Shown: one piece after another, positions 9,222-23,842 of the stretch
How the letters are laid out: each line of letters starts with the position of its first letter
Position numbering within the stretch: position 1 is the stretch's first letter
Assembly (NCBI GenBank): GCA_947464415.1
Contig: CANHWU010000005.1
Coordinates: forward strand, 1 to 43,888
DNA length: 43,888 nt
Direction: 5' to 3'
Source: Flavobacteriales bacterium
GTDB taxonomy: Bacteria > Bacteroidota > Bacteroidia > Flavobacteriales_D > Sanyastnellaceae
Position numbers and translations under genes: made by a program
The notes under the pieces: generated by a model
The model's input: only the letters and a program-made list of their open reading frames with translations
Database searches by the model: none
What the model was told of the DNA's origin: nothing

Positions 9222-10355
9222 TTATAGAGTGCCTCTTAGCTCTTGTTCTCTCTCTATCGATTCAAATAAGGCTTTGAAGTTTCCTTTACCAAAACTCTTG
9301 GCTCCTTTCCTCTGAATGATTTCAAAGAACATGGTAGGTCGGTCTAAAACAGGCTTGGTGAACAACTGAAGCAAATAACCTTCATCGTCACGATCGATGA
9401 GAATTCCCAACTCTTTCAAGGGAGCGAGATCTTCATCTATTTTTCCAACACGATCTAACACATCATCGTAATATGTGGGCGGCACATACAGAAACTCTAC
9501 CCCTCCTGCTTTTAATGCTTTCACGGTTTCAATAATGTTATCGGTTGCCACGGCAATGTGCTGCACGCCTGCACCGTTATAAAAATCAATATACTCTTCT
9601 ATTTGGCTTTTCTTTCTCCCACTGGCAGGTTCATTGATGGGGAATTTGATTCTCCCATTGCCATTGGACATTACTTTACTCATCAGGGCAGTGTACTCCG
9701 TGCTGATGTCTTTGTCATCAAAACTCACCAATTGAGTAAAGCCCATCACTTTAGCATAAAACTCACACCATTTATTCATTTCATTCCAACCCACATTGCC
9801 CACCATGTGGTCGATGAATTTTAATCCCACTTCTTGGGTTTTGAAAGTTGGGTGCCATGGTTGGTAACCTGGCATAAATGCTCCGTTATAATTTTTTCTT
9901 TCTACGAAGTAATGAAGGGTTTCACCATAGGTTTTGATGGCGGAAATCACCACTTCTCCATCTTTGTCTTTTAGTACAACGGGTTCAAGAGCGGATTCCG
10001 CTCCTCTTTGGGTGGTTTGTTGGTAGCTGTATTTTGCATCATCTACCCAAAGCGCTACTACTTTAACTCCATCACCATGATCATTGATGTGTTGATTGAT
10101 AGGTCCTCCAGCCACGAGCGGAGAGGTCAATACCAACCTAATTTTATCTTGTTGTAAAACATAGGAAACGCGATCTCTGGAACCCGTCTCTAATCCCGCA
10201 TAGGCAAGTGGTTGGAATCCCCACGCGCTCATATAATAATGGGCTGCCTGTTTGGCATTGCCAACATATAATTCCACGAAGTCAGTTCCCAAAAGGGGAA
10301 GAAAATCTTGCTCTTCGGTCAATGCCTTTTCTGATTTTTCTGTTGTTGTACTCAT
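9222..10355 (-). CDS. hppD: 4-hydroxyphenylpyruvate dioxygenase
   Basis: A non-haem Fe(II) enzyme that converts 4-hydroxyphenylpyruvate and oxygen to homogentisate, the second step of tyrosine breakdown. The 377 residues form two vicinal-oxygen-chelate halves. The iron ligands can be placed at H183 (FIDHMVGNV), H266 (GVQHIAVAT) and E345 (MFFEIIQRK), and the C-terminal helix GNFKALFESIEREQ that caps the active site is present. The start ATG is 3 bases from the end of hmgA, so the genes form a tight operon in which product and next enzyme are made together. Length and motifs are ordinary for the family. Confidence 0.97.
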   Translation of the reverse strand: MSTTTEKSEKALTEEQDFLPLLGTDFVELYVGNAKQAAHYYMSAWGFQPLAYAGLETGSRDRVSYVLQQDKIRLVLTSPLVAGGPINQHINDHGDGVKVVALWVDDAKYSYQQTTQRGAESALEPVVLKDKDGEVVISAIKTYGETLHYFVERKNYNGAFMPGYQPWHPTFKTQEVGLKFIDHMVGNVGWNEMNKWCEFYAKVMGFTQLVSFDDKDISTEYTALMSKVMSNGNGRIKFPINEPASGRKKSQIEEYIDFYNGAGVQHIAVATDNIIETVKALKAGGVEFLYVPPTYYDDVLDRVGKIDEDLAPLKELGILIDRDDEGYLLQLFTKPVLDRPTMFFEIIQRKGAKSFGKGNFKALFESIEREQELRGTL

Positions 10356-10358
10356 TTT

Positions 10359-11522
10359 TTATTTTTTATCTATCCACGAATATGCATAATCTACATCACT
10401 TAAATCCACTGCTGTTTGCGTAAGCATAAGGGGTTTAAAAGTGTCCACCATAACGGCTAATTCAAGCGTCTCTTTTTGACCGATGCTTCTCTCATAAGCT
10501 CCTGGGTGAGGTCCATGAGGAATTCCTCCAGGATGAAGTGAAATGTATCCTTTTTCGACATGATTACGGCTCATAAAATCACCATCTACATAATAAAGCA
10601 CTTCATCAGAATCAATGTTGCTATGGTTATAGGGAGCCGGAATCGATTTGGGATGGTAATCATAAAGTCTGGGGCAAAATGAACATATCACAAAGTTGTG
10701 TGCTTCAAAAGTTTGATGTACTGGAGGGGGTTGGTGCACGCGTCCTGTAATGGGTTCAAAATCATGAATAGAAAAGGCATAGGGATAATTATATCCGTCC
10801 CAGCCAGCAACATCAAAAGGATGCGCAGCATAATGCACCTCGTGAAGGACTCCTTGCTTTTTAATTTTGATCAAGAAGTCCCCTTTTTCGTCATGACATT
10901 CTAATGCATACGGTTTTCTGATATCTCTTTCGCAATAAGGAGAGTGCTCCAATAATTGTCCAAATTCATTTCGATAACGTTGTGGTGTTACCACGGGACT
11001 GAAGCTGTCAATAATGAAGAGCCTATTTTCAGTGGTGTTGAATTCTATTTGGTAAATCATGCCTCTTGGGATCACTAAATAGTCTCCATAAGCAAAATCA
11101 AGGTTACCTAATAAAGTTCGTAATTTACCACTTCCCTGATGAACAAAAATTACTTCGTCCGCGTCTGCATTTTTATAAAAGTATTCTGTCATACTTTTAG
11201 AAGGTGCGGAAAGCGATATGTGCAGATCGTTGTTAAATAATACAACCTTTCTGCTTTCTAAAAAATCTTCTATGCTTGGGATTTCAAATCCTTTCAGCAT
11301 GTACGGCTGGATATTCTTTTGAATGGCTGCCTTTGGGCTCATATCCATAGAATTTCCCACTCTTTGTATCATGGTGGGACGATTCACATGATAAAGTAAC
11401 GAGGACATTCCGCTGAAACCTTCCGTGCCAAAAAGTTGCTCATAATGAATTCCACCGTTTGGTTTTTCGAAAACGGTATGTCTTTTATGCGGAATATTTC
11501 CTAGTTGATGATAGATTGGCAT
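10359..11522 (-). CDS. hmgA: Homogentisate 1,2-dioxygenase
   Basis: Opens the aromatic ring of homogentisate to maleylacetoacetate, the step after HppD. The 387-residue cupin-fold protein shows the family start (MPIYHQLGNIPHKRHT), the metal-site region YNHSNIDSDEVLYY (H300 with D306 or E307 as the acidic ligand) and SLHPGGIPHGPHPG (H336). It is shorter than the ~440-residue animal enzyme, as usual for Bacteroidota members. It lies 12 bases after the SPOR-domain gene and 3 before hppD. Genes for the later steps (maleylacetoacetate isomerase, fumarylacetoacetase) are not in the window. Confidence 0.93.
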   Translation of the reverse strand: MPIYHQLGNIPHKRHTVFEKPNGGIHYEQLFGTEGFSGMSSLLYHVNRPTMIQRVGNSMDMSPKAAIQKNIQPYMLKGFEIPSIEDFLESRKVVLFNNDLHISLSAPSKSMTEYFYKNADADEVIFVHQGSGKLRTLLGNLDFAYGDYLVIPRGMIYQIEFNTTENRLFIIDSFSPVVTPQRYRNEFGQLLEHSPYCERDIRKPYALECHDEKGDFLIKIKKQGVLHEVHYAAHPFDVAGWDGYNYPYAFSIHDFEPITGRVHQPPPVHQTFEAHNFVICSFCPRLYDYHPKSIPAPYNHSNIDSDEVLYYVDGDFMSRNHVEKGYISLHPGGIPHGPHPGAYERSIGQKETLELAVMVDTFKPLMLTQTAVDLSDVDYAYSWIDKK

Positions 11523-11534
11523 ATTGTAAATTTT

Positions 11535-11945
11535 TTAGTCTTTTAAGTCAATTCGAGGTGGTTCTACCATATCGTCCACGATAATGGCAGAGGGGATTTC
11601 TTTTCTGATTTCTTTGAGTGCAACACGAGCTTCATTTTTGGAAAGAAAATTACCATATCTCAACACATAGTCGGGGATGTTTTGGCTGATATATATCATT
11701 GCATTGGGGTGCTGCAAAATGTATTGCTGACGGAATCGCTTAGCGTCTTCTAAACTCCCCAAGAAAATTTGAATGCGGTAACCGCTCTGAAGCGAGGGTC
11801 GTCGGGTGGATTTTTCGAGCTCTGCCACATCTTGAGAAACATGCCAAGAAATTTTCCCCCTTTTGGGTGGATGTCCCTGCCCAGAAAGGCAATGAGTGAG
11901 ACAACACCCAAAAACAAACAAAAAAATAGGCCTCTTCAAATCCAT
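11535..11945 (-). CDS. SPOR-like domain secreted protein
   Basis: A small exported protein of 136 residues. An N-terminal hydrophobic stretch (RPIFLFVFGCCL) acts as signal peptide or possibly lipoprotein signal. Residues ~60-136 look like a SPOR/sporulation-related repeat fold: YRIQIFLGSLEDAKRF, then PDYVLRYGNFLSKNEARVAL, then ending IPSAIIVDD. SPOR domains bind peptidoglycan glycan strands lacking stem peptides at division sites. The ATG encoding MDLKRP is preferred over an in-frame GTG eight codons upstream, since it places the signal peptide at the N-terminus. A TAnnTTTG box sits only 4 bases before this ATG, so promoter and start are not fully settled. It is first in the hmgA-hppD operon, with no obvious functional link to tyrosine catabolism. 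Confidence 0.7.
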   Translation of the reverse strand: MDLKRPIFLFVFGCCLTHCLSGQGHPPKRGKISWHVSQDVAELEKSTRRPSLQSGYRIQIFLGSLEDAKRFRQQYILQHPNAMIYISQNIPDYVLRYGNFLSKNEARVALKEIRKEIPSAIIVDDMVEPPRIDLKD

Positions 11946-12049
11946 TGTCCAAAAGTAATTTTTTTTCACTTTCTATCGTGAATATTGTTGATCTAAATTC
12001 ACAATCACCACATTTTCAAGGTACTGCATTTTCTCAAAGGATGTTAATT

Positions 12050-12068
12050 ATTTAGAATTATTCTAAAT
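12050..12068. promoter_or_regulatory. Perfect 19-bp palindrome, candidate Fur-family operator
   Basis: ATTTAGAAT-T-ATTCTAAAT has perfect 9-base arms around one central base. The inner TTAGAAT-T-ATTCTAA has the 7-1-7 layout typical of Fur/PerR-family boxes. It lies between the divergent SPOR-hmgA-hppD operon and the act-cox operon, 46 bases upstream of the actA -7-like box. Identity of the binding protein is inference. Confidence 0.55.
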
Positions 12069-12113
12069 TACAAAACAAATGCTCATGACAGTTCTGTGAT
12101 AAACGTCTGTACT

Positions 12114-12121
12114 TATTTTTG
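12114..12121 (+). promoter_or_regulatory. Possible -7 box (TATTTTTG) of the act-cox operon
   Basis: Exact match to TAnnTTTG, ending 39 bases before the actA ATG, within the AT-rich divergent region. No good TTTG is seen at the expected -33 distance, so activation by an upstream factor is possible. Confidence 0.4.
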
Positions 12122-12160
12122 CGCAACGTTCCAAAGTGGATAAACAGTAAAAACCTAGCA

Positions 12161-13546
12161 ATGACAGGCTTTTCAATAAGATTAAGAAAAATGCTGTTGG
12201 GTGTAATCCTAGCGGTATCAACGAGCGCTCAAGTTTTTGGCGCTTCCATTCATGAAGGTGGCGATGTCGCCAGTGGAGAAAAATTGTTCAAGGCCAATTG
12301 TGCTTCTTGTCATAAAGTGACGGATGAAGTGCTGGCGGCCCCTGGATTAAAGGGAATTGATCAAAGATGGGCAGGAAAAGATGCTCTGATTGTGAAGTGG
12401 ATTCAGAATCCACAAGCCGCTGCCGCAACTGGTGATCCCTACATCAAAGGCTTAGTAGCGAAGTATGTTGGGCAGTTTGGTTGGATGGCGGCACAAGCGG
12501 TTTCTGAAGCCGAGATAAAGGACATATTGACCTATGTGAAGTCAGGTAGTGGTGCATCAGCCGCTCCTGCAGCTGCAGGCAATGCGTGTCCGACAATCAT
12601 GGAAGAAATCAATGCTGAGTACGCTGACAGTGGAAGCAGTGAGAATATGATTTGGTTCATTATCATTGGTGTTATTTTGGCCATCATCGGTGCTTCAGCA
12701 GCAAATATTTCAAAATCACTTAAAACGGCGGTGAATGAGCGTGAAGGCCTCGCTCCTGTTGAGGACAAGACCTATTGGGAAGTGGTGAAATCTTGGATGT
12801 GGAAGTATCGTGTTTGGGTGGGTGTTAGCGGATTTTTGATCTTCGTTTACTTTTTTGTAGTGGGTTATGAGAAATTGTATCGCATTGGCATCAATCAAGG
12901 ATACATGCCCGATCAGCCCATTTGGTTTTCGCATGCCCGTCACGTATGTGAAAATGAAATAGATTGTCAATATTGTCACTCCAGTGCAGCGAAGTCTAAG
13001 CATGCAGGAATTCCTTCGGTGAATATTTGTATGAATTGCCACAAGGGTATTAAGAAAGGTCCTCAAAGTGGGGAAAAAGAGATTGCTAAGATTTATGCTG
13101 CCATCGGTTTTGATCCTGCTACCGGACAGTATATTGAGAATTATGAGCAACAACCAATTCAATGGAATAAAGTACATAACCTTCCGGATCATGTGAACTT
13201 TAATCATAGTTTGCACGTAACGGGAGCAAAGTTGGATTGTAAGCAGTGTCATGGCCCTGTGCAAACCTACACTGTGGGTAGATTGGCTCCGATTGAAGAA
13301 ATCAACGCTCAAGAAGATGTGGAGGGTTTAATCAAGTTGACCAAGCCTACTCTCACAATGGGTTGGTGTATTGAGTGTCACAACAAAGCGGAAATCGATT
13401 TGAAGAGCTCAGATTACTATGTAGAAATGCACAAGCGTTTCCAGACCTCTGATTTAGGTAAAAAGACATTCGAAGAAATCATGAAGGACAACGCTGTCAC
13501 CGTCAAAGAGATGGGCGGATGGGAATGCGGTAAATGTCACTATTAA
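12161..13546 (+). CDS. actA: Alternative complex III subunit ActA, multihaem cytochrome c
   Basis: The multihaem electron-transfer subunit of alternative complex III, which oxidises menaquinol and reduces cytochrome c. The 461-residue protein has a signal peptide, then a monohaem cytochrome c domain (CASCH at residues 47-51, EIKDILTYVKSG). Two membrane helices follow (IWFIIIGVILAIIG and VGVSGFLIFVYFFVVG), then a pentahaem domain with CQYCH, CMNCH, CKQCH, CIECH and CGKCH, making six CXXCH motifs in total. Start: the ATG giving MTGFSIRLRK, since an in-frame TTG 14 codons earlier overlaps the promoter-like box. It is the first gene of the respiratory operon, 18 bases before actB. Confidence 0.93.
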   Translation: MTGFSIRLRKMLLGVILAVSTSAQVFGASIHEGGDVASGEKLFKANCASCHKVTDEVLAAPGLKGIDQRWAGKDALIVKWIQNPQAAAATGDPYIKGLVAKYVGQFGWMAAQAVSEAEIKDILTYVKSGSGASAAPAAAGNACPTIMEEINAEYADSGSSENMIWFIIIGVILAIIGASAANISKSLKTAVNEREGLAPVEDKTYWEVVKSWMWKYRVWVGVSGFLIFVYFFVVGYEKLYRIGINQGYMPDQPIWFSHARHVCENEIDCQYCHSSAAKSKHAGIPSVNICMNCHKGIKKGPQSGEKEIAKIYAAIGFDPATGQYIENYEQQPIQWNKVHNLPDHVNFNHSLHVTGAKLDCKQCHGPVQTYTVGRLAPIEEINAQEDVEGLIKLTKPTLTMGWCIECHNKAEIDLKSSDYYVEMHKRFQTSDLGKKTFEEIMKDNAVTVKEMGGWECGKCHY

Positions 13547-13564: not shown

Positions 13565-16500
13565 ATGAGTAATAATAAAAAATATTGGACCAGTCTAGAG
13601 GAGTTCAACAATCGTGAATCCTTCCAAGACGCTATCACCAATGAGTTTCAAGGTGAAAATAACGCCTTGTCAGCATTTGCCGACGAAAAATTATCCAAGG
13701 CAAATACGGGACGACGTGACTTTTTAAAATTCATGGGATTCAGTGTTGCGGCGGCAACACTAGCAGCTTGCGAGGCTCCTGTGGTGAAAAGCATTCCGTA
13801 TGTAGTGAAGCCAGAGGATTTAACTCCCGGTATCGCTAATTTTTATGCCTCCACCTATTACGATGGAATGGATTATGCCAATATCTTGGTAAAGACCAGA
13901 GAGGGTCGTCCCATTTTCATTAAAGGAAATAAAACGCATGGTTTAGGCCATGGAGCAGTAAACGCGCGTATCAACGGCTCGGTGCTTGAATTATATGATG
14001 AAGAGCGATTAAAAGGTCCTCAGGCGAAGGGTGCTGAGTTAGATTGGGTAAGTGTAGACAACACTATGTCGGAAGCTTTATCTACAGCGAACTCCGTGAG
14101 AATCCTCTCCTCTACTATTATTAGCACTACAACAAAGAATGCGATTGCGGCGTTTTCAGCCAAGTATTCTGGGAAAGTGAAACACATCCAGTATGATGCA
14201 GTTTCTTATTTTGGTTTGACCTCCGCTCATGGCGAAGCATTCGGTAAAGCCGTAGTACCTCATTACCATTTTGATAAAGCGCAAGTGGTGGTGAGTATTG
14301 GAGCTGATTTCTTGGGTTCATGGTTGACCTCTAACCTATACCAGGGAGACTACGCGGCGGCACGTCGTCCAGAGAGTGGAAAGATGAGCAAGCACTACCA
14401 ATTTGAGTCCAATATGAGTTTGACGGGATCTAATGCAGATGTTAGAATTCCCATCAAACCCTCTCAAGAAGGCAAGGTGGTGGCGGCTCTTTTTGGTGCG
14501 CTTTCAGGACAATCCGTAAGTGCTGATGGCATTGACGCTGCTATGATTGCGAAAATAGCCGATGAGCTAAAAGCTAATGCTGGTGCTTCATTGGTGGTGA
14601 GTGGAAGCAATGATACCAACATTCAACGAGTAGTTTTGGCCATCAACAAAATGTTGAATAATTATGGCGCAACCATCAATATGGATGCCCATTTGAATTT
14701 ATTTGCTGGGAATGATACAGCGGTGGGTGAATTGGTGAGTGAAATGAACGCCGGAACTGTGGATGTTTTGATTATTCATCAAGCCAATCCAGTTTATGAT
14801 TTGGCCAATTTGAACTTTGCAGATGCATTGTCTAAAGTAAAGACCTCCATCAGTTTCGCCTTGTACAATGATGAAACCGCAAGCCGTTGTTCAATGGTGG
14901 CGCCCACTCATCATATGTTGGAATCTTGGGATGATGTAAGCGCTGTGAATGGTAGAATGGATTTGGTTCAACCCACCATATCTCCATTGTATAATACGCG
15001 TCCTGCAGGTCAAAACTATATGATTTGGTCAGGAAATAACGCGAGTTATTATGATTATTTGAGAACTACTTTCAACGCTGGGTATTCACCAGATATGATG
15101 AATAGTGATCAAAATTGGTATATGGCGGTGCACAATGGTACTTTTGCTGTAAATACGGCACCAGCAGTATTGAATGAGTCTGGAGAAAAGACGATAATCG
15201 CAAGTCCTGCTCCTGTTGCAATGTCTAGCGCTCCTGATGTAAGTGCAGCCTTATCAGCCATTACCAGTGCCACAGGTGGCGCATGGGAAATGTCCTTATA
15301 TACTTCTGTCAATTTAGGTTGGGGTAATCATGCCAACAATCCTATGTTGCAAGAGACTCCGGATCCGATCACTAAGGTAACTTGGGACAACTATGTTGCC
15401 ATGGCGCCAAAGGATATGGAAGAGATGGGATTGAATATGTACATTGGTGAGCAAGAACCATCCTCATTGGTGAAAGTTTCGGCGAACGGAAAGACATTAA
15501 TTTTACCAGCAGTGGCGACACCTGGTCAGAAGAGAGGTACCTTCAGCATTGCGCTAGGATATGGAAGAGGGGAAGGAAATGAGGCTATCGGTAAGGCGGC
15601 CTATCAAGTGGATGGGGATGGTGAGTTTATCATGGAGAATGATAAAAGAACACCGATTGGTAAAAACGCTTACGCTTTGGTAAGTGGTGGTTTATATGCT
15701 TCATACAATGCAACCTTGGAGGTTACGGGTGAAACATATGCCATGGCTTCAACACAGTTGCACAGTACGGTAATGGGTCGTGACTCTGTGGTGAAAGAGA
15801 CCACGTTTGCCGCTTTTTTAAATGAAAAGGATAAAGCGAAAGGAAAGGCATCTTGGAATTTTGCCAACACATTGCCCGTTCATCATGATGTGAATGGTGA
15901 TGGCGAAATCACGGCTAAAGGAGATCGCGTTCCTGTTCGTGATATGGATTTATGGGCGGCACATCCTGTAGAGAATGTGGGTCACAGATGGGGTATGACC
16001 ATCGATTTGACCTCTTGTATCGGTTGCGGTTCATGTATTACGGCTTGTCACACAGAGAACAATGTTCCAGTGGTAGGAAAAGATGAAGTGAGAAGACACC
16101 GCGATATGCATTGGATGCGCATCGATCGTTACTTCTCTTCTGATTTTGCGACATTGGAAGAAACCAAGGAGCAAAAGCAATTAGGTACCATCGCAGCATA
16201 CGGCGATATGGAGGTTCCTACCGAAAATCCTCAGACCGTTCACATGCCGATGATGTGTCAGCATTGTAATCACGCTCCATGTGAGACGGTTTGCCCAGTG
16301 GCAGCTACCGCTCACAGCAACGAGGGATTGAACAATATGGCTTATAATCGTTGTATTGGAACGCGTTATTGCGCCAACAACTGTCCTTACAAAGTGCGTC
16401 GTTTCAATTGGTTCAACTATGTAACCAATGACAAATTCGCGAAGTTTAATCCATCTCAGGACGAGACGATGCGTATGGTATTGAATCCAGATGTTACAGT

Positions 16501-16789
16501 GCGTACCCGTGGAGTAATGGAGAAGTGCAGCATGTGTCAACAGCGCATTCAAGCAGGTAAGATTGAGGCGAAGAAGAAAGGAGAAGTAGTGAGTGATGGC
16601 GCCATTGTTACCGCTTGTGCAGAAGCTTGCCCAACACACGCTATCGTATTTGGAGATTTGAATGATACAGCAAGTGAAAATACAGGCAGAGCAAATAACA
16701 ACCGTTCGTATCATGCACTTGAAGAAGTAGGTATTCAACCCAATATCTACTACATGACAAAAGTTAGAAACATAGAAACTGAAGCCTAA
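13565..16789 (+). CDS. actB: Alternative complex III subunit ActB, Mo-oxidoreductase-like and FeS
   Basis: The large periplasmic iron-sulfur subunit of alternative complex III. Of 1074 residues, an unusually placed Tat signal (R50-R51-DFLKFMG) ends at a lipobox-like LAAC with C69. The middle (about 80-730) resembles a molybdopterin oxidoreductase domain, which in characterised ActB lacks the cofactor. The C-terminal part resembles a four-cluster ferredoxin subunit, with CIGCGSCITAC (from C818), CQHCNHAPCETVC (from C898), CIGTRYCANNCP and CSMC with CAEACP. Tat export and lipid anchoring fit its location beside ActA and ActC. The genes either side are spaced 18 and 9 bases away. Confidence 0.95.
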   Translation: MSNNKKYWTSLEEFNNRESFQDAITNEFQGENNALSAFADEKLSKANTGRRDFLKFMGFSVAAATLAACEAPVVKSIPYVVKPEDLTPGIANFYASTYYDGMDYANILVKTREGRPIFIKGNKTHGLGHGAVNARINGSVLELYDEERLKGPQAKGAELDWVSVDNTMSEALSTANSVRILSSTIISTTTKNAIAAFSAKYSGKVKHIQYDAVSYFGLTSAHGEAFGKAVVPHYHFDKAQVVVSIGADFLGSWLTSNLYQGDYAAARRPESGKMSKHYQFESNMSLTGSNADVRIPIKPSQEGKVVAALFGALSGQSVSADGIDAAMIAKIADELKANAGASLVVSGSNDTNIQRVVLAINKMLNNYGATINMDAHLNLFAGNDTAVGELVSEMNAGTVDVLIIHQANPVYDLANLNFADALSKVKTSISFALYNDETASRCSMVAPTHHMLESWDDVSAVNGRMDLVQPTISPLYNTRPAGQNYMIWSGNNASYYDYLRTTFNAGYSPDMMNSDQNWYMAVHNGTFAVNTAPAVLNESGEKTIIASPAPVAMSSAPDVSAALSAITSATGGAWEMSLYTSVNLGWGNHANNPMLQETPDPITKVTWDNYVAMAPKDMEEMGLNMYIGEQEPSSLVKVSANGKTLILPAVATPGQKRGTFSIALGYGRGEGNEAIGKAAYQVDGDGEFIMENDKRTPIGKNAYALVSGGLYASYNATLEVTGETYAMASTQLHSTVMGRDSVVKETTFAAFLNEKDKAKGKASWNFANTLPVHHDVNGDGEITAKGDRVPVRDMDLWAAHPVENVGHRWGMTIDLTSCIGCGSCITACHTENNVPVVGKDEVRRHRDMHWMRIDRYFSSDFATLEETKEQKQLGTIAAYGDMEVPTENPQTVHMPMMCQHCNHAPCETVCPVAATAHSNEGLNNMAYNRCIGTRYCANNCPYKVRRFNWFNYVTNDKFAKFNPSQDETMRMVLNPDVTVRTRGVMEKCSMCQQRIQAGKIEAKKKGEVVSDGAIVTACAEACPTHAIVFGDLNDTASENTGRANNNRSYHALEEVGIQPNIYYMTKVRNIETEA

Positions 16790-16798
16790 TCAAATCAT

Positions 16799-18178
16799 AT
16801 GCAAAAAGAAGCTTCCATTCGTCAGCCCCTCATTTTAGGTCACAAGACTTATCATGACATTACCAATGACATCGTAAGTCCTATTGAAGGTGCTGCTCCA
16901 CGTCAGTGGAAAATTGCTATCACCATTGCCGCCATTATTGCCTTGTACGGCGTGGGCTGTATAGCTTATTTGGTGGGTACCGGTATCGGTGCTTGGGGAT
17001 TAAATAAAACAGTAGGTTGGGCTTGGGACATTACCAACTTCGTTTGGTGGGTAGGTATTGGACACGCGGGAACTTTGATTTCAGCGGTTTTGTTGTTATT
17101 CCGTCAGCGCTGGAGAATGGCGATCAATCGCTCTGCAGAAGCGATGACCATCTTCGCTGTAATGATGGCGGCTGTGTTCCCTGTATTCCACATGGGACGC
17201 GTTTGGATGGCGTATTGGACGCTACCATTGCCCAACCAATTTGGTTCATTATGGCCTAATTTCAACTCTGCGTTGATGTGGGATGTATTTGCGATCTCTA
17301 CTTATTTCTCTGTTTCTTTGGTTTTCTGGTACATCGGTTTGATTCCAGATTTCGCTACCATTCGTGATCGCATGGTGAAGCCAGGCATGAAGAAGTTTTA
17401 CAGCATTTTGAGCTTTGGTTGGTCAGGTAGAGCTAAGAACTGGACTCGATTTGAAGAGGTGTCATTGGTTTTGGCGGGTATCGCAACTCCCTTGGTATTC
17501 TCGGTTCACTCGATTGTATCCATGGACTTTGCTACTTCAGTAGTACCAGGATGGCACACGACGATCTTCCCTCCTTATTTCGTATCCGGAGCTATTTTCT
17601 CTGGATTTGCCATGGTATTAACATTGTTGTTGATCATGCGTAAAACCATGAAATTGGAGGCCTATATCCATGTGAAACACGTGGAATATATGAATATCGT
17701 AATCATCGTAACAGGTTCAATTGTAGGGGTAGCTTACTTGACAGAGCTTTTCATCTCCTGGTATAGTGGGGTGGAATATGAGGCCTATGCGTTCATCAAT
17801 CGTTTCTCTGGACCCTACAGTTGGTCTTATTGGATGATGATGACTTGTAATGTAATCAGCCCTCAGTTGTTCTGGTTCAAAAAGATTAGAACCAATCTTG
17901 CCGCCACATTCGTACTCTCTATTGTGGTGAACATAGGTATGTGGTTTGAGCGTTTTGTGATCATTGTAACTTCCATACACCGAGATTATACTCCAGGTGC
18001 TTGGGGAGAGTTCCACCCATCAGGAATTGATGTGGGAATGTTCATCGGAACCATAGGAATATTCTTTACCCTTTTCTTGTTGTTTGCTCGTTATTTCCCA
18101 GTATTGGCGTTGAATGAGTTGAAGACCATTTTGAAGATGAGTGGTGAGAGTTATAAAAAAGAAGCAGAAAAACATTAA
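16799..18178 (+). CDS. actC: Alternative complex III subunit ActC, NrfD-like quinol-site protein
   Basis: An integral membrane subunit of the NrfD/PsrC family, 459 residues with about ten hydrophobic helices. In solved alternative complex III structures ActC holds the menaquinol-binding site near the FeS subunit. The conserved loop WWVGIGHAGTLISA (His probably at the quinol site), HMGRVWMAYW and the SIVSMDFATSVVPGWH segment are visible. ActC and ActF are distant paralogues within the cluster. It is spaced 9 bases after actB and 18 before actD. Confidence 0.94.
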   Translation: MQKEASIRQPLILGHKTYHDITNDIVSPIEGAAPRQWKIAITIAAIIALYGVGCIAYLVGTGIGAWGLNKTVGWAWDITNFVWWVGIGHAGTLISAVLLLFRQRWRMAINRSAEAMTIFAVMMAAVFPVFHMGRVWMAYWTLPLPNQFGSLWPNFNSALMWDVFAISTYFSVSLVFWYIGLIPDFATIRDRMVKPGMKKFYSILSFGWSGRAKNWTRFEEVSLVLAGIATPLVFSVHSIVSMDFATSVVPGWHTTIFPPYFVSGAIFSGFAMVLTLLLIMRKTMKLEAYIHVKHVEYMNIVIIVTGSIVGVAYLTELFISWYSGVEYEAYAFINRFSGPYSWSYWMMMTCNVISPQLFWFKKIRTNLAATFVLSIVVNIGMWFERFVIIVTSIHRDYTPGAWGEFHPSGIDVGMFIGTIGIFFTLFLLFARYFPVLALNELKTILKMSGESYKKEAEKH

Positions 18179-18196: not shown

Positions 18197-18730
18197 ATGG
18201 CGAACAAAGTATTTCATGTCATGTACGATGATGACCAAAAGCTGATGACAGCTGCGCAAGCATTGGTATCAAAGGGCATTCGCGTTAAAGATGTATTCTC
18301 TCCATTCCCAGTGCATGGGTTGGATCCAGTGATTGGTGTTAAGCGCACCAGACTGGCCATCGCCTCTTTCATGTACGCTACAACAGGAACATTGTTGGCG
18401 ATCATAGGAACATGGTATTTCATGATTCATGATTGGCCGATGAATATAGGTGGAAAGCCAAGTTTTTCATGGGTAGAAAATGCACCTGCGTTTGTACCGG
18501 TTATATTTGAATTTTCTGTTTTTTGTGGTGCGCACGGTATGGTCATTACCTATTTGCTGAGAAATGGTTTGCTACCGGGAATGCCAGCTAGCAATCCGGA
18601 TCCAAGAACAACGGATGATAAGTTTGTAATGGAAATCGTTACCGATCAAAACTCGTCCATGTCGGCCTCAGAATTGGAGGCTTTGATCAAGACAACTGAA
18701 GTGTATGAACTTAGCATCAAGGAGTACTAA
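18197..18730 (+). CDS. actD: Alternative complex III subunit ActD (DUF3341)
   Basis: A small membrane subunit of 177 residues. The N-terminal ~55 residues are soluble and cytoplasmic, including the VKDVFSPFPVHGLD segment typical of DUF3341. Two membrane helices follow, about residues 55-78 (FMYATTGTLLAIIGTWYF) and 98-125. A short C-terminal tail ends KTTEVYELSIKEY. It has no cofactor motif; in known complexes ActD packs beside ActC. One base separates it from actE. Confidence 0.92.
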   Translation: MANKVFHVMYDDDQKLMTAAQALVSKGIRVKDVFSPFPVHGLDPVIGVKRTRLAIASFMYATTGTLLAIIGTWYFMIHDWPMNIGGKPSFSWVENAPAFVPVIFEFSVFCGAHGMVITYLLRNGLLPGMPASNPDPRTTDDKFVMEIVTDQNSSMSASELEALIKTTEVYELSIKEY

Positions 18731-18731
18731 T

Positions 18732-19466
18732 ATGAAACGTCCGATTATTAAAGTAACTGGATTTTTGGCTGTGGTATTGGCCTTAACATCTTGTCGTGTA
18801 GATCCCAATTCAGCGGGATATGAGTATATGCCAGACATGTATCGTTCACCAGCTTTAGAGGCTTATGTGGATTACGGTTCCAATAAACACATGGATTGGA
18901 CTCTTCAACAAAAGGAGGCCGCTGGGGTAAAGATGAAATTATCTAGAAAGCCTGTTGCTGGTACAGTTCCATACATGGAGTCTGACATGAAAAGGGCAAG
19001 TGCACTTTGTGTTACGGACGCAAATTGGATGGTGATGCCCTATGCATTGAGAAATACTCCAGAAGATTATGAGCGATCAGCGGGAGAAATCAAGTCTCCT
19101 TTGATGGCCAATAAGACCAACATTGAGAAAGGGGCAGCTTTGTATCAGCAAATGTGTGCACATTGTCATGGTAAGGAGGGGAAGGGAGATGGAAAGATTT
19201 CAGCCGATGGAAAGATTGTAGCTCCTGACTATCCTGGTAAATTGAAAGACTTATCGGAAGGAAAAATGTATCACTCCATTACTTATGGTAAAGGATTGAT
19301 GGGGTCTCACGCTTCTCAATTATCAAAATTGGAGCGTTGGCAGGTGATTGAGTTTGTGAAGTGTTTGCAAAAAGGCATCACGGCACCAGAGTTTGACAAG
19401 GAAGGTAAATTGGTGATAGCTGCAGCTACTGCTGAAGCTCCAGCTGCTGAACCTGCAAAACCATAA
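18732..19466 (+). CDS. actE: Alternative complex III subunit ActE, monohaem cytochrome c lipoprotein
   Basis: A periplasmic monohaem cytochrome c, 244 residues, likely the exit point of electrons to cytochrome c or directly to the oxidase. The N-terminal signal ends at a lipobox (LALTSC), predicting a lipid anchor. The haem motif is CAHCH, followed by GKEGKGDG, and the axial Met is probably in KGLMGSHASQL. The tail is Ala/Pro/Glu-rich (EAPAAEPAKP). Start: the ATG one base after the actD stop, preferred over an in-frame upstream ATG inside actD because it begins the signal sequence. Confidence 0.93.
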   Translation: MKRPIIKVTGFLAVVLALTSCRVDPNSAGYEYMPDMYRSPALEAYVDYGSNKHMDWTLQQKEAAGVKMKLSRKPVAGTVPYMESDMKRASALCVTDANWMVMPYALRNTPEDYERSAGEIKSPLMANKTNIEKGAALYQQMCAHCHGKEGKGDGKISADGKIVAPDYPGKLKDLSEGKMYHSITYGKGLMGSHASQLSKLERWQVIEFVKCLQKGITAPEFDKEGKLVIAAATAEAPAAEPAKP

Positions 19467-19485: not shown

Positions 19486-20697
19486 ATGAAACAAGATAAA
19501 TTGCAATTTGAAATTCCTGCGGGTGTGCAGAAGTGGTCAACCATCTGTATGGCCATTGGTTTGGTGGCTGCAGTGGGTGGTTGGATCGTGGATCACACAG
19601 ATCATCATCAGTATTGGTGGGCTAATTTATTGATCAATGGTTTCTTTTATTTTGCGGTGGCTTTAGGAGCGTTGTTTTTCTACGCATTGCAATATGCCAC
19701 CGAAGCCGCATGGTCAGCCCAGCTGAAAAGAATTTTTGAGGCGATGTATGGTTACATTCCAGTAGGAGTAGGGGTCATTATCGTGGTGTTATTGGCAGGC
19801 CAATTCCACATTCATCATTTATATCATTGGATGGATCCAGATGTTCATGACGTGAACAGCCCTGCTTATGATGAGATCATCGCCAATAAAAAGCCTTATT
19901 TGTCCGCTTGGTTCTTTTGGTTGAGAATGATTGCTTACGCCGGTGTTTTCATTTATTTTGCTAGAAAATTCCGTGAGTGGTCCTTACAAGAGGACGCAGT
20001 TGGTGGAACTGAATTACATTATCTACAATATCGTAAAGGGGCGGTTTTCTTGGTGTTTTTTGCAGTATTCTCCTCCACGATGGCTTGGGATGTTTTGATG
20101 AGCATTGATACCCATTGGTACTCTACCATGTACGGTTGGTATATATTCGCTGGAATGTGGGTCACTACGATGATTTTTGCTACGTTGGCCTTGATTTGGT
20201 TGAAAGGTTTGGGTTATTTCGGAAGCGTCAACGATTCTCATATTCATGACATGGGTAAATGGGTATTTGCTATTTCAATGTTGTGGAGTTATTTGTGGTT
20301 TTGCCAATATATGTTGATTTGGTATTCAGATATCCCGGAAGAGGTAACCTACTTCCAAACGCGTTATGAGCATTACATGGGATTGATGTGGGGTATTTTC
20401 TTTACCAATTTTGCATTGCCTTTTTATGTATTGATTGCCAGGGATGCCAAGAGAAACAAGAAGTTTTTGATGAGGGTGGGTGCTATATTGTTTGTTTCGC
20501 ACTTCTTTGATTTGTATTTGGCGGTAATACCAGGAACCAATCATGCACATGAAACTTTCACAGGTTGGTTTGAATTAGGTTTGTTTATCGGATTTTTGGG
20601 TTTATTTGTACGCATGTTTGTTACAGCATTAAGTAAGGCCAATTTGATTCCGGTGAATCATCCATTTTTAAATGAGAGTGAGCATCATAGTATTTAA
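19486..20697 (+). CDS. actF: Alternative complex III subunit ActF, membrane subunit
   Basis: An integral membrane protein of 403 residues with about ten predicted helices, distantly related to ActC. It is annotated in homologues as quinol:cytochrome c oxidoreductase quinone-binding subunit 2. Visible family features are HHLYHWMDPD after the third helix, the WSLQEDA loop, TMAWDVLMSIDTHWYSTMYGW, and the late NHAHETFTGWFELG segment. In structures ActF lies on the side that contacts the terminal oxidase. It is spaced 19 bases after actE and 28 before coxB. Confidence 0.93.
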   Translation: MKQDKLQFEIPAGVQKWSTICMAIGLVAAVGGWIVDHTDHHQYWWANLLINGFFYFAVALGALFFYALQYATEAAWSAQLKRIFEAMYGYIPVGVGVIIVVLLAGQFHIHHLYHWMDPDVHDVNSPAYDEIIANKKPYLSAWFFWLRMIAYAGVFIYFARKFREWSLQEDAVGGTELHYLQYRKGAVFLVFFAVFSSTMAWDVLMSIDTHWYSTMYGWYIFAGMWVTTMIFATLALIWLKGLGYFGSVNDSHIHDMGKWVFAISMLWSYLWFCQYMLIWYSDIPEEVTYFQTRYEHYMGLMWGIFFTNFALPFYVLIARDAKRNKKFLMRVGAILFVSHFFDLYLAVIPGTNHAHETFTGWFELGLFIGFLGLFVRMFVTALSKANLIPVNHPFLNESEHHSI

Positions 20698-20725: not shown

Positions 20726-22045
20726 ATGAACCTTATAATTGTTCTATTAGTAGTATTAGCCATCATTGCGATTGCTCAATTGACCAAGGTGTATGATTTG
20801 TCGCGCACTTTAAGGAATTCTAGAGAAGAGGAAATAACTCCTGCTGACAACAGACTTAATGCTAATGCTTGGGTAATTTGGATGTATGTGTTTTTTGCAT
20901 CTACACTCTATTTATACGGGAAATATGGGGATTATTTGCCTGAATCTGCTTCAGAGCATGGCGTATCAGTGGATCGCTTGATGTCGATCAATATTTGGAT
21001 GATCACCATCGTGTTTTTTATTGTGAATTATTTACTTTTCACGTTTGCGAAGAAGTATCAATATAATCCAGGAAGAAAGGCAAAGTTCTTTACCCATGAC
21101 AATCGCTTAGAGATGTTGTGGACTTTGATTCCAGGTGTTTCAATGGCCTTTATTATCGTGTATGGATTGATTACATGGAATAACATCACAGGCCCCGCTT
21201 CTGCTGACGCTATGCAAATTGAATTGTATTCAAAGCAATTTGATTGGACGGCACGTTATCCTGGAGATAACAAAGTTTTTGGAGCTGCCGATTTCAATTT
21301 GATTGGTACCACCAACGGTTTAGGTATTGTCACCAAAGAAGGTATTCAATCGAAGATGGAGGAGTTAGATACAGAGATGGAAAATGTGAAGGCGGCTATC
21401 GAGTTAGTGAAAAAAGAAAATGGTAATTTAATACAACACCGTCAGCATTCCAATAGTATACTGTCCAATATGTTGAATGGTTTAATGCCTAATTTCTTTC
21501 CGAGTGAAGGTAGCGCAACAGTGGATTATGTGGCCGCTTTGGAGGACGAGCTATACCGATTACAGCGTCACAAGCAAAGAATTTTAGATTTGTCTGAGAA
21601 TGAATTGAATGGTTTGAGTCAATGGGAGGCTGGAAATGATGATAGAATTGTAAAGGGCGAGTTTCATATTCCAGTGGGACAAGAAGTGGAGTTTGTATTT
21701 CGTTCTCAAGATGTAATTCACTCTGCTTACATGCCTCATTTCCGTGCGCAGATGAATACTGTGCCAGGAATGCCTACTCGATTTAAAATGAAGCCAACCA
21801 TCACCACGGCAGAAATGAGAAAGAAGATGGGTAATGACAAATTTGATTATATCTTGTTGTGTAACAAGGTATGTGGTGCGGCGCATTTCAACATGAAGAT
21901 GACGGTAATCGTTGACACGCCAGAGGATTATGCGGTTTGGTTGGCGCAGCAAAAAACATTCGGTGGTTCAAAAGAAGCCCCATCAGATTCAACAGGAGTG
22001 GAAACTCCTAAGGCGGATACATTGACCATGGCAGCAAATCATTAA
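20726..22045 (+). CDS. coxB: Cytochrome c oxidase subunit II with long insertion in the CuA domain
   Basis: Receives electrons at the CuA centre of an aa3-type oxidase. The protein has 439 residues, longer than the ~250-350 usual for the subunit. Membrane helices lie at about residues 2-18, 48-65, 86-107 and 131-150, so there are extra N-terminal helices beyond the canonical two. CuA ligands can be placed at H332 (DVIHSAYMPHF), C379, C383, H387 and M390 (CNKVCGAAHFNM). The usual Glu of CxExC is Lys, whose backbone could still serve. Residues ~197-305 form an insertion rich in Glu, Lys, Gln and Leu that looks helical. The last ~30 residues are low-complexity. It is co-operonic with actF and coxA. 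Confidence 0.94.
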   Translation: MNLIIVLLVVLAIIAIAQLTKVYDLSRTLRNSREEEITPADNRLNANAWVIWMYVFFASTLYLYGKYGDYLPESASEHGVSVDRLMSINIWMITIVFFIVNYLLFTFAKKYQYNPGRKAKFFTHDNRLEMLWTLIPGVSMAFIIVYGLITWNNITGPASADAMQIELYSKQFDWTARYPGDNKVFGAADFNLIGTTNGLGIVTKEGIQSKMEELDTEMENVKAAIELVKKENGNLIQHRQHSNSILSNMLNGLMPNFFPSEGSATVDYVAALEDELYRLQRHKQRILDLSENELNGLSQWEAGNDDRIVKGEFHIPVGQEVEFVFRSQDVIHSAYMPHFRAQMNTVPGMPTRFKMKPTITTAEMRKKMGNDKFDYILLCNKVCGAAHFNMKMTVIVDTPEDYAVWLAQQKTFGGSKEAPSDSTGVETPKADTLTMAANH

Positions 22046-22072: not shown

Positions 22073-23842
22073 ATGGGAGCACACGGACACGACCACGGAC
22101 ATCATGAGGAAAGCTTCATTTCTAAGTATGTTTTTTCTCAGGATCACAAGATGATCTCCAAGCAGTTTTTGATCACTGCTATTTTTATGGGAGTGATAGC
22201 TGTAATGCTATCAATATTCTTCCGATTACAATTGGGTTGGCCAGGAGAGAAATTTGCCTTACTCAATACCTTTTTAGGAGATAAATGGGCGCCAGATGGA
22301 ATTCTGGATAAAAATGCCTATTTAGCGATGGTGACCATTCACGGTACCATTATGGTATTCTTTGTACTCACCGGAGGATTATCGGGAACATTTGCCAACC
22401 TTTTGATTCCATTGCAAATTGGAGCCCGTGATATGGCTTCAGGATTTTTGAATATGTTGTCGTATTGGTTCTTCTTGTTTTCCAGCATTATCATGGTGGC
22501 CTCATTATTCGTTGAAGGCGGAGCAGCTTCCGGAGGTTGGACAGTATACCCTCCCTTATCTGCGTTGCCACAAGCCATGCCAGGTTCAGGAACAGGTATG
22601 ACGCTCTGGTTAATTTCAATGGTTTTATTTGTGGTCTCTTCTCTATTGGGTGGTTTGAATTATATCGTCACCATCATTAATTTAAGAACCAAAGGAATGA
22701 AGATGACCCGCATGCCTTTGACAATGTGGGCGATTTTAGTGACCGCCATTTTAGGTGTTCTGTCCTTCCCGGTTTTGGTTTCTTGTGTGGTGCTATTGGT
22801 GATGGATAGAACCATGGGAACGGCTTTCTATCTCTCCGATATTTTTATTCAAGGGGAGGCGTTGGATGTAACAGGAGGTTCTCCGATATTATTCCAGCAT
22901 TTGTTTTGGTTTTTAGGTCACCCTGAAGTGTATATCGTACTTCTACCAGCCCTAGGAATTTCTTCTGAAGTCATAGCTACCAATTCGCGCAAGCCTATCT
23001 TTGGTTACAAGGCAATGGTGGGTTCTATATTAGCTATTGGTTTCTTGTCTTTCATTGTTTGGGGTCACCACATGTATGTGACAGGAATGAATCCATTCAT
23101 CGGTTCTGTGTTTGTTTTCACTACTTTATTGATCGCTATCCCCTCTGCTGTTAAAGCATTCAACTATATTACCACATTGTGGAAGGGAAATATCAAATTC
23201 ACTCCTGCCATGATGTTCTCGGTAGGTTTAGTGAGCACTTTCGTGACAGGAGGTTTGACAGGGATTATTTTGGCGGATTCAGCTCTTGATGTGAATGTAC
23301 ATGACACTTACTTCGTTGTAGCTCACTTCCATATCGTAATGGGTATGTCTGCTATCTTTGGAATGCTTGCGGGGGTTTATCATTGGTTCCCCAAAATGTT
23401 CGGTAAGATGCTAAATTCCAAATTGGGTTATGCCCATTTCTGGTTGACGATGATTTGTGGATTTGGGGTATTTTTCCCAATGCACTTCGTGGGTATAGCA
23501 GGTGCTCCTAGAAGGTATTATGATTATTCTGAGTTTGAATATTTGAATGCAGTATTAGATCTAAATCCGATGATTTCCATCTTTGCCATCATCGGTGGTT
23601 CCGCTCAAATATTATTCCTCATCAATTTTTTCCATAGTATTTTTTACGGACAAGCGGCAACTCAGAACCCTTGGAATTCTAATACCTTGGAATGGACAAC
23701 GCCCGTTAAGCATATCCACGGTAACTGGCCCGGTGCTTTACCCGAGGTGCATCGTTGGGCTTATGACTACTCCAATCCTGAGCATGAGGAAGATTTTGTA
23801 CCCCAAATCGTTCCTTTGAAAGCAGGTGAACACAGTCACTAA
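22073..23842 (+). CDS. coxA: Cytochrome c oxidase subunit I
   Basis: The catalytic subunit that reduces oxygen to water and pumps protons. The 589 residues make about 12 helices after a His-rich start (GAHGHDHGHHEE). Haem a ligand region HGTIMVFFVLTGG, the active-site H283-PEV-Y287 (His-Tyr cross-link and the proton-channel Glu), CuB histidines WGHHMYVTG, the K-channel lysine in IPSAVKAFNY, and haem ligands VHDTYFVVAHFH are all present. The Glu in HPEVY marks an A-family (A1-like) enzyme. It is the last gene of the act-cox operon and a hairpin terminator follows. Subunits III and IV and haem a synthesis genes are not in the window. Confidence 0.97.
   Translation: MGAHGHDHGHHEESFISKYVFSQDHKMISKQFLITAIFMGVIAVMLSIFFRLQLGWPGEKFALLNTFLGDKWAPDGILDKNAYLAMVTIHGTIMVFFVLTGGLSGTFANLLIPLQIGARDMASGFLNMLSYWFFLFSSIIMVASLFVEGGAASGGWTVYPPLSALPQAMPGSGTGMTLWLISMVLFVVSSLLGGLNYIVTIINLRTKGMKMTRMPLTMWAILVTAILGVLSFPVLVSCVVLLVMDRTMGTAFYLSDIFIQGEALDVTGGSPILFQHLFWFLGHPEVYIVLLPALGISSEVIATNSRKPIFGYKAMVGSILAIGFLSFIVWGHHMYVTGMNPFIGSVFVFTTLLIAIPSAVKAFNYITTLWKGNIKFTPAMMFSVGLVSTFVTGGLTGIILADSALDVNVHDTYFVVAHFHIVMGMSAIFGMLAGVYHWFPKMFGKMLNSKLGYAHFWLTMICGFGVFFPMHFVGIAGAPRRYYDYSEFEYLNAVLDLNPMISIFAIIGGSAQILFLINFFHSIFYGQAATQNPWNSNTLEWTTPVKHIHGNWPGALPEVHRWAYDYSNPEHEEDFVPQIVPLKAGEHSH

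Follow-up and report, generated by a model that had tools for sequence, protein, structure and literature searches.

A conserved Fur box upstream of alternative complex III in Bacteroidota is a predicted, helically phased operator of the actA promoter

The 43,888-bp stretch of DNA analysed here (the window) carries a respiratory operon on its plus strand. The operon begins with actA (12161..13546, +), which encodes a multihaem cytochrome c of alternative complex III with six CxxCH motifs, and continues with actB (13565..16789, +), an FeS subunit with Fer4 domains, the NrfD-like subunit actC (16799..18178, +), actD (18197..18730, +; PF11821), actE (18705..19466, +), a monohaem cytochrome c with one CxxCH, and a probable actF (19486..20697, +), named from its position only and without a Pfam match. 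Genes for cytochrome oxidase subunit II (20726..22045, +; COX2_TM) and subunit I (22073..23842, +; COX1) follow. A sequence-only reading of the window had described seven haem c sites, FeS clusters and haem a and copper centres downstream, and the operon indeed holds seven CxxCH motifs, FeS domains and COX1/COX2. It had also described two iron dioxygenases on the divergent side. Both are encoded there, a homogentisate 1,2-dioxygenase-like gene (10359..11522, −) and a 4-hydroxyphenylpyruvate dioxygenase-like gene (9222..10355, −), but the first divergent gene is a different one, encoding a SPOR-domain protein (11535..11945, −; longest frame to 11969). The control region between the two sides is the widest divergent gap in the window's ORF list, in agreement with the same reading.

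This gap contains a perfect 9-1-9 palindrome, ATTTAGAATTATTCTAAAT (12050..12068, no strand), a predicted Fur operator by its identity to a Fur box. Its arms, ATTTAGAAT and ATTCTAAAT, flank a central T with 0 mismatches, as originally described, and its 17-bp core TTTAGAANNNTTCTAAA (12051-12067) forms the heptads TTAGAAT-T-ATTCTAA. Between the palindrome and actA lie a TGACA-N6-TGATA direct repeat (12086..12101, +), a possible second-regulator site, and the −7 box of the actA promoter, TATTTTTG (TAnnTTTG; 12114..12121, +), which has no good −33 TTTG. The 46 bases previously counted to this box are exact when measured from the end of the 17-bp core at 12067. With −7 boxes placed at −12 to −5, as start-site mapping in F. 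psychrophilum does (PMC9723704), actA transcription is predicted to start near 12126, and the centre of the palindrome then falls at about −67.

Palindromicity by itself is only modest evidence for an operator. No other perfect 9-1-9 palindrome occurs in the window, and dinucleotide shuffles (n = 60) yielded a mean of 0.18 per window, with at least one in 8 of the 60. Because the bare palindrome is only mildly unusual, the case for an operator rests on its identity to a published box and on its conservation. The shuffle expectation is what a chance palindrome, or an RNA hairpin with no operator role, has in its favour; set against the published-box identity and a site conserved with fixed spacing in 40 genomes, such an origin is extremely improbable.

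The palindrome is identical to a Fur box described in another member of the phylum. A full-text search with its letters returned one relevant paper, the top result, a study of Fur in R. anatipestifer YM (PMC5609570). The Fur-binding consensus predicted there, 5'-ATTTAGAATTATTCTAAAT-3', agrees with the window palindrome at 19 of 19 letters. All four target promoters that the study tested by EMSA (hmuR, sprT, RAYM_01847 and RAYM_09824) bound purified Fur, and a box upstream of rhuB with one mismatch was likewise bound (PMC10986502). Another report gives the E. coli-type GATAATGATAATCATTATC as the YM Fur box (PMC7976709), disagreeing with the ATTTAGAATTATTCTAAAT of PMC5609570; it saw binding by R. 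anatipestifer Fur only with Mn2+. The palindrome is very probably an authentic Bacteroidota Fur operator, of a type already known.

A single Fur-family protein was detected that could read this box. In the source genome (2.49 Mb in 196 contigs; 92.66% complete) a single FUR-family match lies on contig C30, flanked by spoT-like and purA-like frames (spoT-fur-purA). A Fur-family tree built from 41 of 60 retrieved proteins groups the C30 protein with those of Chryseobacterium, Lutibacter and Sinomicrobium in the Bacteroidota Fur clade. It shares 67–68% identity with Lutibacter and Sinomicrobium Fur and 51% with that of Chryseobacterium, which we take to belong to the same family as R. anatipestifer and which served as a stand-in sequence; by this route the R. 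anatipestifer regulator would be orthologous to C30 Fur. A search for Rrf2-family genes gave no match in the 92.66%-complete genome, and an Rrf2-family (IscR/RirA) operator was marked down. CxxC zinc motifs are absent from C30 Fur (L029/L187), and several such cysteines are kept in Emticicia, Pedobacter and Algoriphagus Fur; the C30 lineage seems to have lost its structural zinc.

Two diagnostic residues of C30 Fur point to PerR-like DNA reading combined with iron sensing. An Arg/Asn position in helix H4 distinguishes Fur from PerR in DNA specificity, and a Glu/Asp position does so in peroxide sensitivity (PMC8638851). C30 Fur has the PerR-type Asn in H4 (RATLYNTIE aligned with Streptococcus ATVYNN) and Glu, not Asp, at the peroxide position (VIEF versus Streptococcus IADF). 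With this pairing it would be expected to recognise a PerR-like box while responding to iron, and the box and its targets suggest just such a protein. Of the Fur/PerR-family operator proposed in the sequence-only reading, the Fur part therefore stands, by the identity of the 19-mer to the R. anatipestifer box, its conservation and its iron, FeS and haem genes, and the PerR part, with the peroxide-responsive control it implied, gives way to the Fur-type Glu, PerR-type Asn notwithstanding. A peroxide-responsive regulator of PerR type would account for the 7-1-7 layout, for the recognition-helix Asn and for the occurrence of the same 19-mer in two Streptococcus genomes, each with a single FUR-family protein that aligns as PerR-like. 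It is nonetheless quite unlikely, given Glu instead of Asp in the sole detected Fur-family protein and sites before suf, hemA, actA, nqrA, TonB and feoB genes that fit iron. We consider C30 Fur very probably the protein that binds the palindrome.

The box recurs upstream of iron-related genes throughout the family. Among 61 same-family genomes the exact core TTTAGAANNNTTCTAAA occurs at 27 sites in 19 genomes, versus 2 for the reversed pattern, and the stricter TTTAGAATNATTCTAAA occurs at 22 sites in 18 of 296 phylum genomes, versus 0 reversed. The 27 family sites precede sufA (11), actA (4), TonB receptors (4), nqrA with a T9SS plug gene next to it (4, of which G053 was identified directly through the plug neighbour alone), hemA beside an AraC gene (2), and one DUF4856 and one DUF6607 gene, both in G057. 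In genera g18 and g12, exact sites lie between divergent hemA/AraC genes and between divergent nqrA/type 9 secretion plug genes (L054, L055, L050, L062). sufA was matched in 52 of the 61 family genomes and its upstream region scanned in all 52: 47 had a site with at most 3 of 14 mismatches and 34 one with at most 1, against 1/52 for the reversed motif. actA was matched in 58 of 61, of which 53 upstream stretches were retrieved (G013, G021, G022, G030 and G044 were left out) and 52 scanned, G007 being dropped without upstream sequence and G057 kept with 175 bp only. Here 45 of 52 genomes had a site with at most 3 mismatches and 29 one with at most 1, versus 3/52 in the reversed control. The seven genomes with no recognisable actA site belong to g10 (4 of 4 examined) and g4 (3 of 5, one with only 175 bp upstream). 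Conservation in relatives and enrichment upstream of iron, FeS and haem genes, both put forward as checks with the original observation, are thus seen.

Only the exact core stands out within the source genome. It occurs twice, before actA and before sufA, versus 0 times reversed. Weaker sites immediately precede the genes of a TonB-plug protein and of a ZIP transporter. Allowing two mismatches gave 26 matches versus 43 for the reversed pattern, and the relaxed core with one mismatch gave 13 versus 19, so mismatch-tolerant searches add no statistical weight. Two one-mismatch sites in coding frames (C11, ftsZ-like; C5:2183, a 590-aa frame) were read as chance. The weak site TTTAGAGGTGTTCGAAA repeats near contig ends (G000 C46:38-54, C50:18-34, C158:3720-3736), and its copies probably belong to a single repeat at which the assembly broke.

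The actA operator stands at one of two fixed distances from its promoter. A perfect TAnnTTTG box follows 40 of 45 actA sites, at a gap of 46–47 bp in 22 genomes or 56–59 bp in 18 and nowhere else. These two spacing classes are one helical turn apart, and the palindrome centre is predicted to lie near −67 or, in relatives, −78. Site and −7 box are near-invariant, the sequence between them is poorly conserved, and the left flank holds 0.15 bit per column. In 40 of 40 cases the actA site thus has the position of a class I-like activator site, helically phased and ahead of the core promoter. TTTG occupies the −33 place in 1 of these 40 promoters versus 19 of the 41 sufA promoters with a box. In 16 of these 41 sufA promoters the palindrome begins 21–26 bp beyond the first base of the −7 box; in 20 it ends 5–16 bp before the box, and in 5 it ends 28–29 bp before. 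The sufA operator is therefore on or beside the core promoter, a promoter-blocking geometry, in most genomes. Kinship may explain some of the spacing pattern seen within the family. Taken together, these patterns make it highly probable that actA is the target of the palindrome in the window.

Many, though not all, family actA promoters also carry, in either orientation, a TGACA-N6-TGACA direct repeat of 11-bp period within the interval from Fur box to −7 box. The position of this element shifts relative to both. It may bind a second activator, OmpR/PhoB-like or other.

The data do not support Fur control on the divergent tyrosine side. In many genera of the family actA has the SPOR-domain gene as its divergent neighbour, a persistent pairing although this gene has no known link to complex III, and hmgA lies behind the SPOR gene in g1, g7, g8, g11, g19 and g20. 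An operator that also, or mainly, controls the SPOR-hmgA-hppD side would make sense of this pairing. It would likewise fit g10, where the SPOR homologue is co-directional with actA and the palindrome is not recognisable, an arrangement that is the one hint of a role on the divergent side. Such control is unlikely all the same, since the left flank is unconserved beside the near-invariant site and −7 box, the distance from site to SPOR gene is highly variable, and the closest −7-like box on the minus strand, TACTTTTG (11950..11957, −), is 93 bp from the core palindrome. The SPOR gene is probably not a target, and the control of both sides envisaged in the sequence-only reading yields to an operator whose distance to the actA promoter alone is fixed across genera.

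The exact 19-mer extends far beyond the family. Across 84,980 named species genomes it occurs in at least 119 stretches; those listed comprise 64 from Bacteroidota, 29 from Alphaproteobacteria, 9 from Verrucomicrobia and 17 other, with phyla assigned from record titles and 2 Balneolales/Balneolaceae counted as other. The 68 proteins next to the listed Bacteroidota sites include TonB plug (9), cytochrome c7 domain (6), glutamyl-tRNA reductase (4) and FeoB (3) proteins. In Bacteroidetes bacterium 4572_117 the fur gene itself (L072:5803-6261) begins 63 bp after an exact 19-mer, which suggests autoregulation. Exact 19-mers also precede DUF2249/DUF1858-like proteins and oxidoreductases labelled NDH-2-like from the sequence start only (L081, L169, L103, L152), with a −7 box touching the site or 13 bp past it.

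The promoter spacing recurs among these distant sites. Among the matches listed, six Bacteroidota ActA relatives follow an exact site: a −7 box stands at 45, 45, 46 and 56 bp in four, and none was found after the site in the other two. Of seven hemA genes just downstream of an exact site among the matches listed, two have the box at 46 and 47 bp and the others at 32 or 89 (twice) or not at all; hemA spacing is not uniform. This tally left out the verrucomicrobial ActA-like L140 and the far matches HemA L142, SufA L121 and plug L146. An unselected count over 130 Bacteroidota site orientations from the matches listed, made without the family member L073, found 7 boxes at 44–47 bp versus 1.1 expected, 3 at 56–58 bp and 0 at 48–55 bp, and an alphaproteobacterial control of this count, again among the matches listed, gave none. 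The neighbours with a box at 44–47 bp are ActA (3), HemA (2), CcmE (1, read from the protein start) and a small secreted protein (1).

The alphaproteobacterial copies bring a haem-responsive regulator into consideration. Among the 30 proteins that neighbour the listed alphaproteobacterial sites, VIT1 domains occur in 7 and rubrerythrin domains in 6, together presumably the make-up of mbfA. mbfA is a target of Irr (PMC3413700). A regulator of Irr type, working through an iron control element as it does in Rhizobiales, would explain the 29 listed alphaproteobacterial loci and a regulon that looks alike, but it is very unlikely in the source genome: C30 Fur is only 26% identical to Rhizobium Irr-like proteins (over 82 residues), which form another clade, it falls within the Bacteroidota Fur clade, and a search of the genome found no second Fur-family gene. 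Bacteroidota Fur and Irr-type alphaproteobacterial loci have one palindrome in common, in line with the H4 Asn rule.

The explanation we favour, and consider rather likely as a whole, is that the palindrome is the operator of the single detected Fur, serves the actA promoter and mediates activation by Fe-Fur. Fe-Fur at about −67 (−78 in relatives), on a constant helix face, would assist RNA polymerase where the promoter lacks a good −33 element, and the iron-rich respiratory complex would thereby be produced under plentiful iron. On boxes covering the core promoters of sufA and probably also of uptake genes, this same protein would repress. A drop in iron would then raise uptake and FeS assembly and lower complex III. 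Activation as the direction of control at actA is probable, judged from promoter position.

The same operator could work with the opposite sign. Fur at −67 would then repress actA, for instance if it dislodged an activator bound to the TGACA-N6-TGACA element, or apo-Fur would repress at low iron; we give repression as a whole a minor but real chance. The repeat found in many actA promoters on the stretch from site to −7 box would suit the first route, and apo-Fur repression is known in Helicobacter (PMC7976709). Against them, R. anatipestifer Fur bound with Mn2+ only (PMC7976709), the intervening element moves relative to site and box, the actA site is clear of the core promoter, unlike that of sufA, and shutting off an iron-rich complex at plentiful iron makes little physiological sense. 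Mutant data from R. anatipestifer are ambiguous: in the fur mutant an ACIII subunit is down (−2.23) under iron restriction only, with no iron-rich value listed, and iron-rich medium is where activation by Fe-Fur should show. Because suf genes still rise under iron limitation in that mutant (PMC5609570), suf is not under Fur alone in R. anatipestifer. A search of the Bacteroidota literature on Fur and complex III, with subscription journals mostly outside its reach, returned no report of Fur activating complex III.

Activation by Fe-Fur may be a wider pattern. We put at about even the chances that, across Bacteroidota, Fur directly activates an iron-consuming branch (alternative complex III, HemA and CcmE) from helically phased sites and, where the same box lies at the core promoter, represses suf and uptake genes. 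If so, one protein and one box would run an iron-sparing switch in which promoter position sets the sign. The turn-down of iron-rich respiration under iron scarcity has so far been poorly described in Bacteroidota, and a conserved, one-turn-phased Fur box before complex III and some hemA genes offers a directly testable model.

The operator shares features with several known systems. It has the 7-1-7 heptads of a PerR box, typically TTATAATNATTATAA, and its presumed regulator has the H4 Asn of PerR, which differs in carrying Asp where C30 Fur has Glu. The iron control element of Rhizobiales has suf, haem and iron-use targets that resemble the sites here. It also shares the palindrome, with exact 19-mers in Rhizobium and Ancylobacter genomes, but is read by Irr, which binds haem and represses at low iron (PMC3413700), and the C30 protein is not Irr. 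Closest are the R. anatipestifer Fur boxes (PMC5609570, PMC10986502), with the same 19 letters, in the same phylum and with TonB receptor targets; these differ in lying mainly before uptake genes, at most 100 bp from the start codon, as repressor sites, and Table 5 of PMC5609570 lists no complex III, suf or hemA box. In Neisseria and Helicobacter, repressed genes have the Fur box across the polymerase site and activated genes have it farther upstream (PMC3788343). The latter is the arrangement of Neisseria norB, aniA and nuoA and Helicobacter oorB, whose boxes precede the transcription start by about 100 bp or more. The actA box, in another phylum and before complex III and hemA genes, is instead predicted at −67 or −78 with strict one-turn phasing, and it is this phased geometry before complex III that appears to be new.
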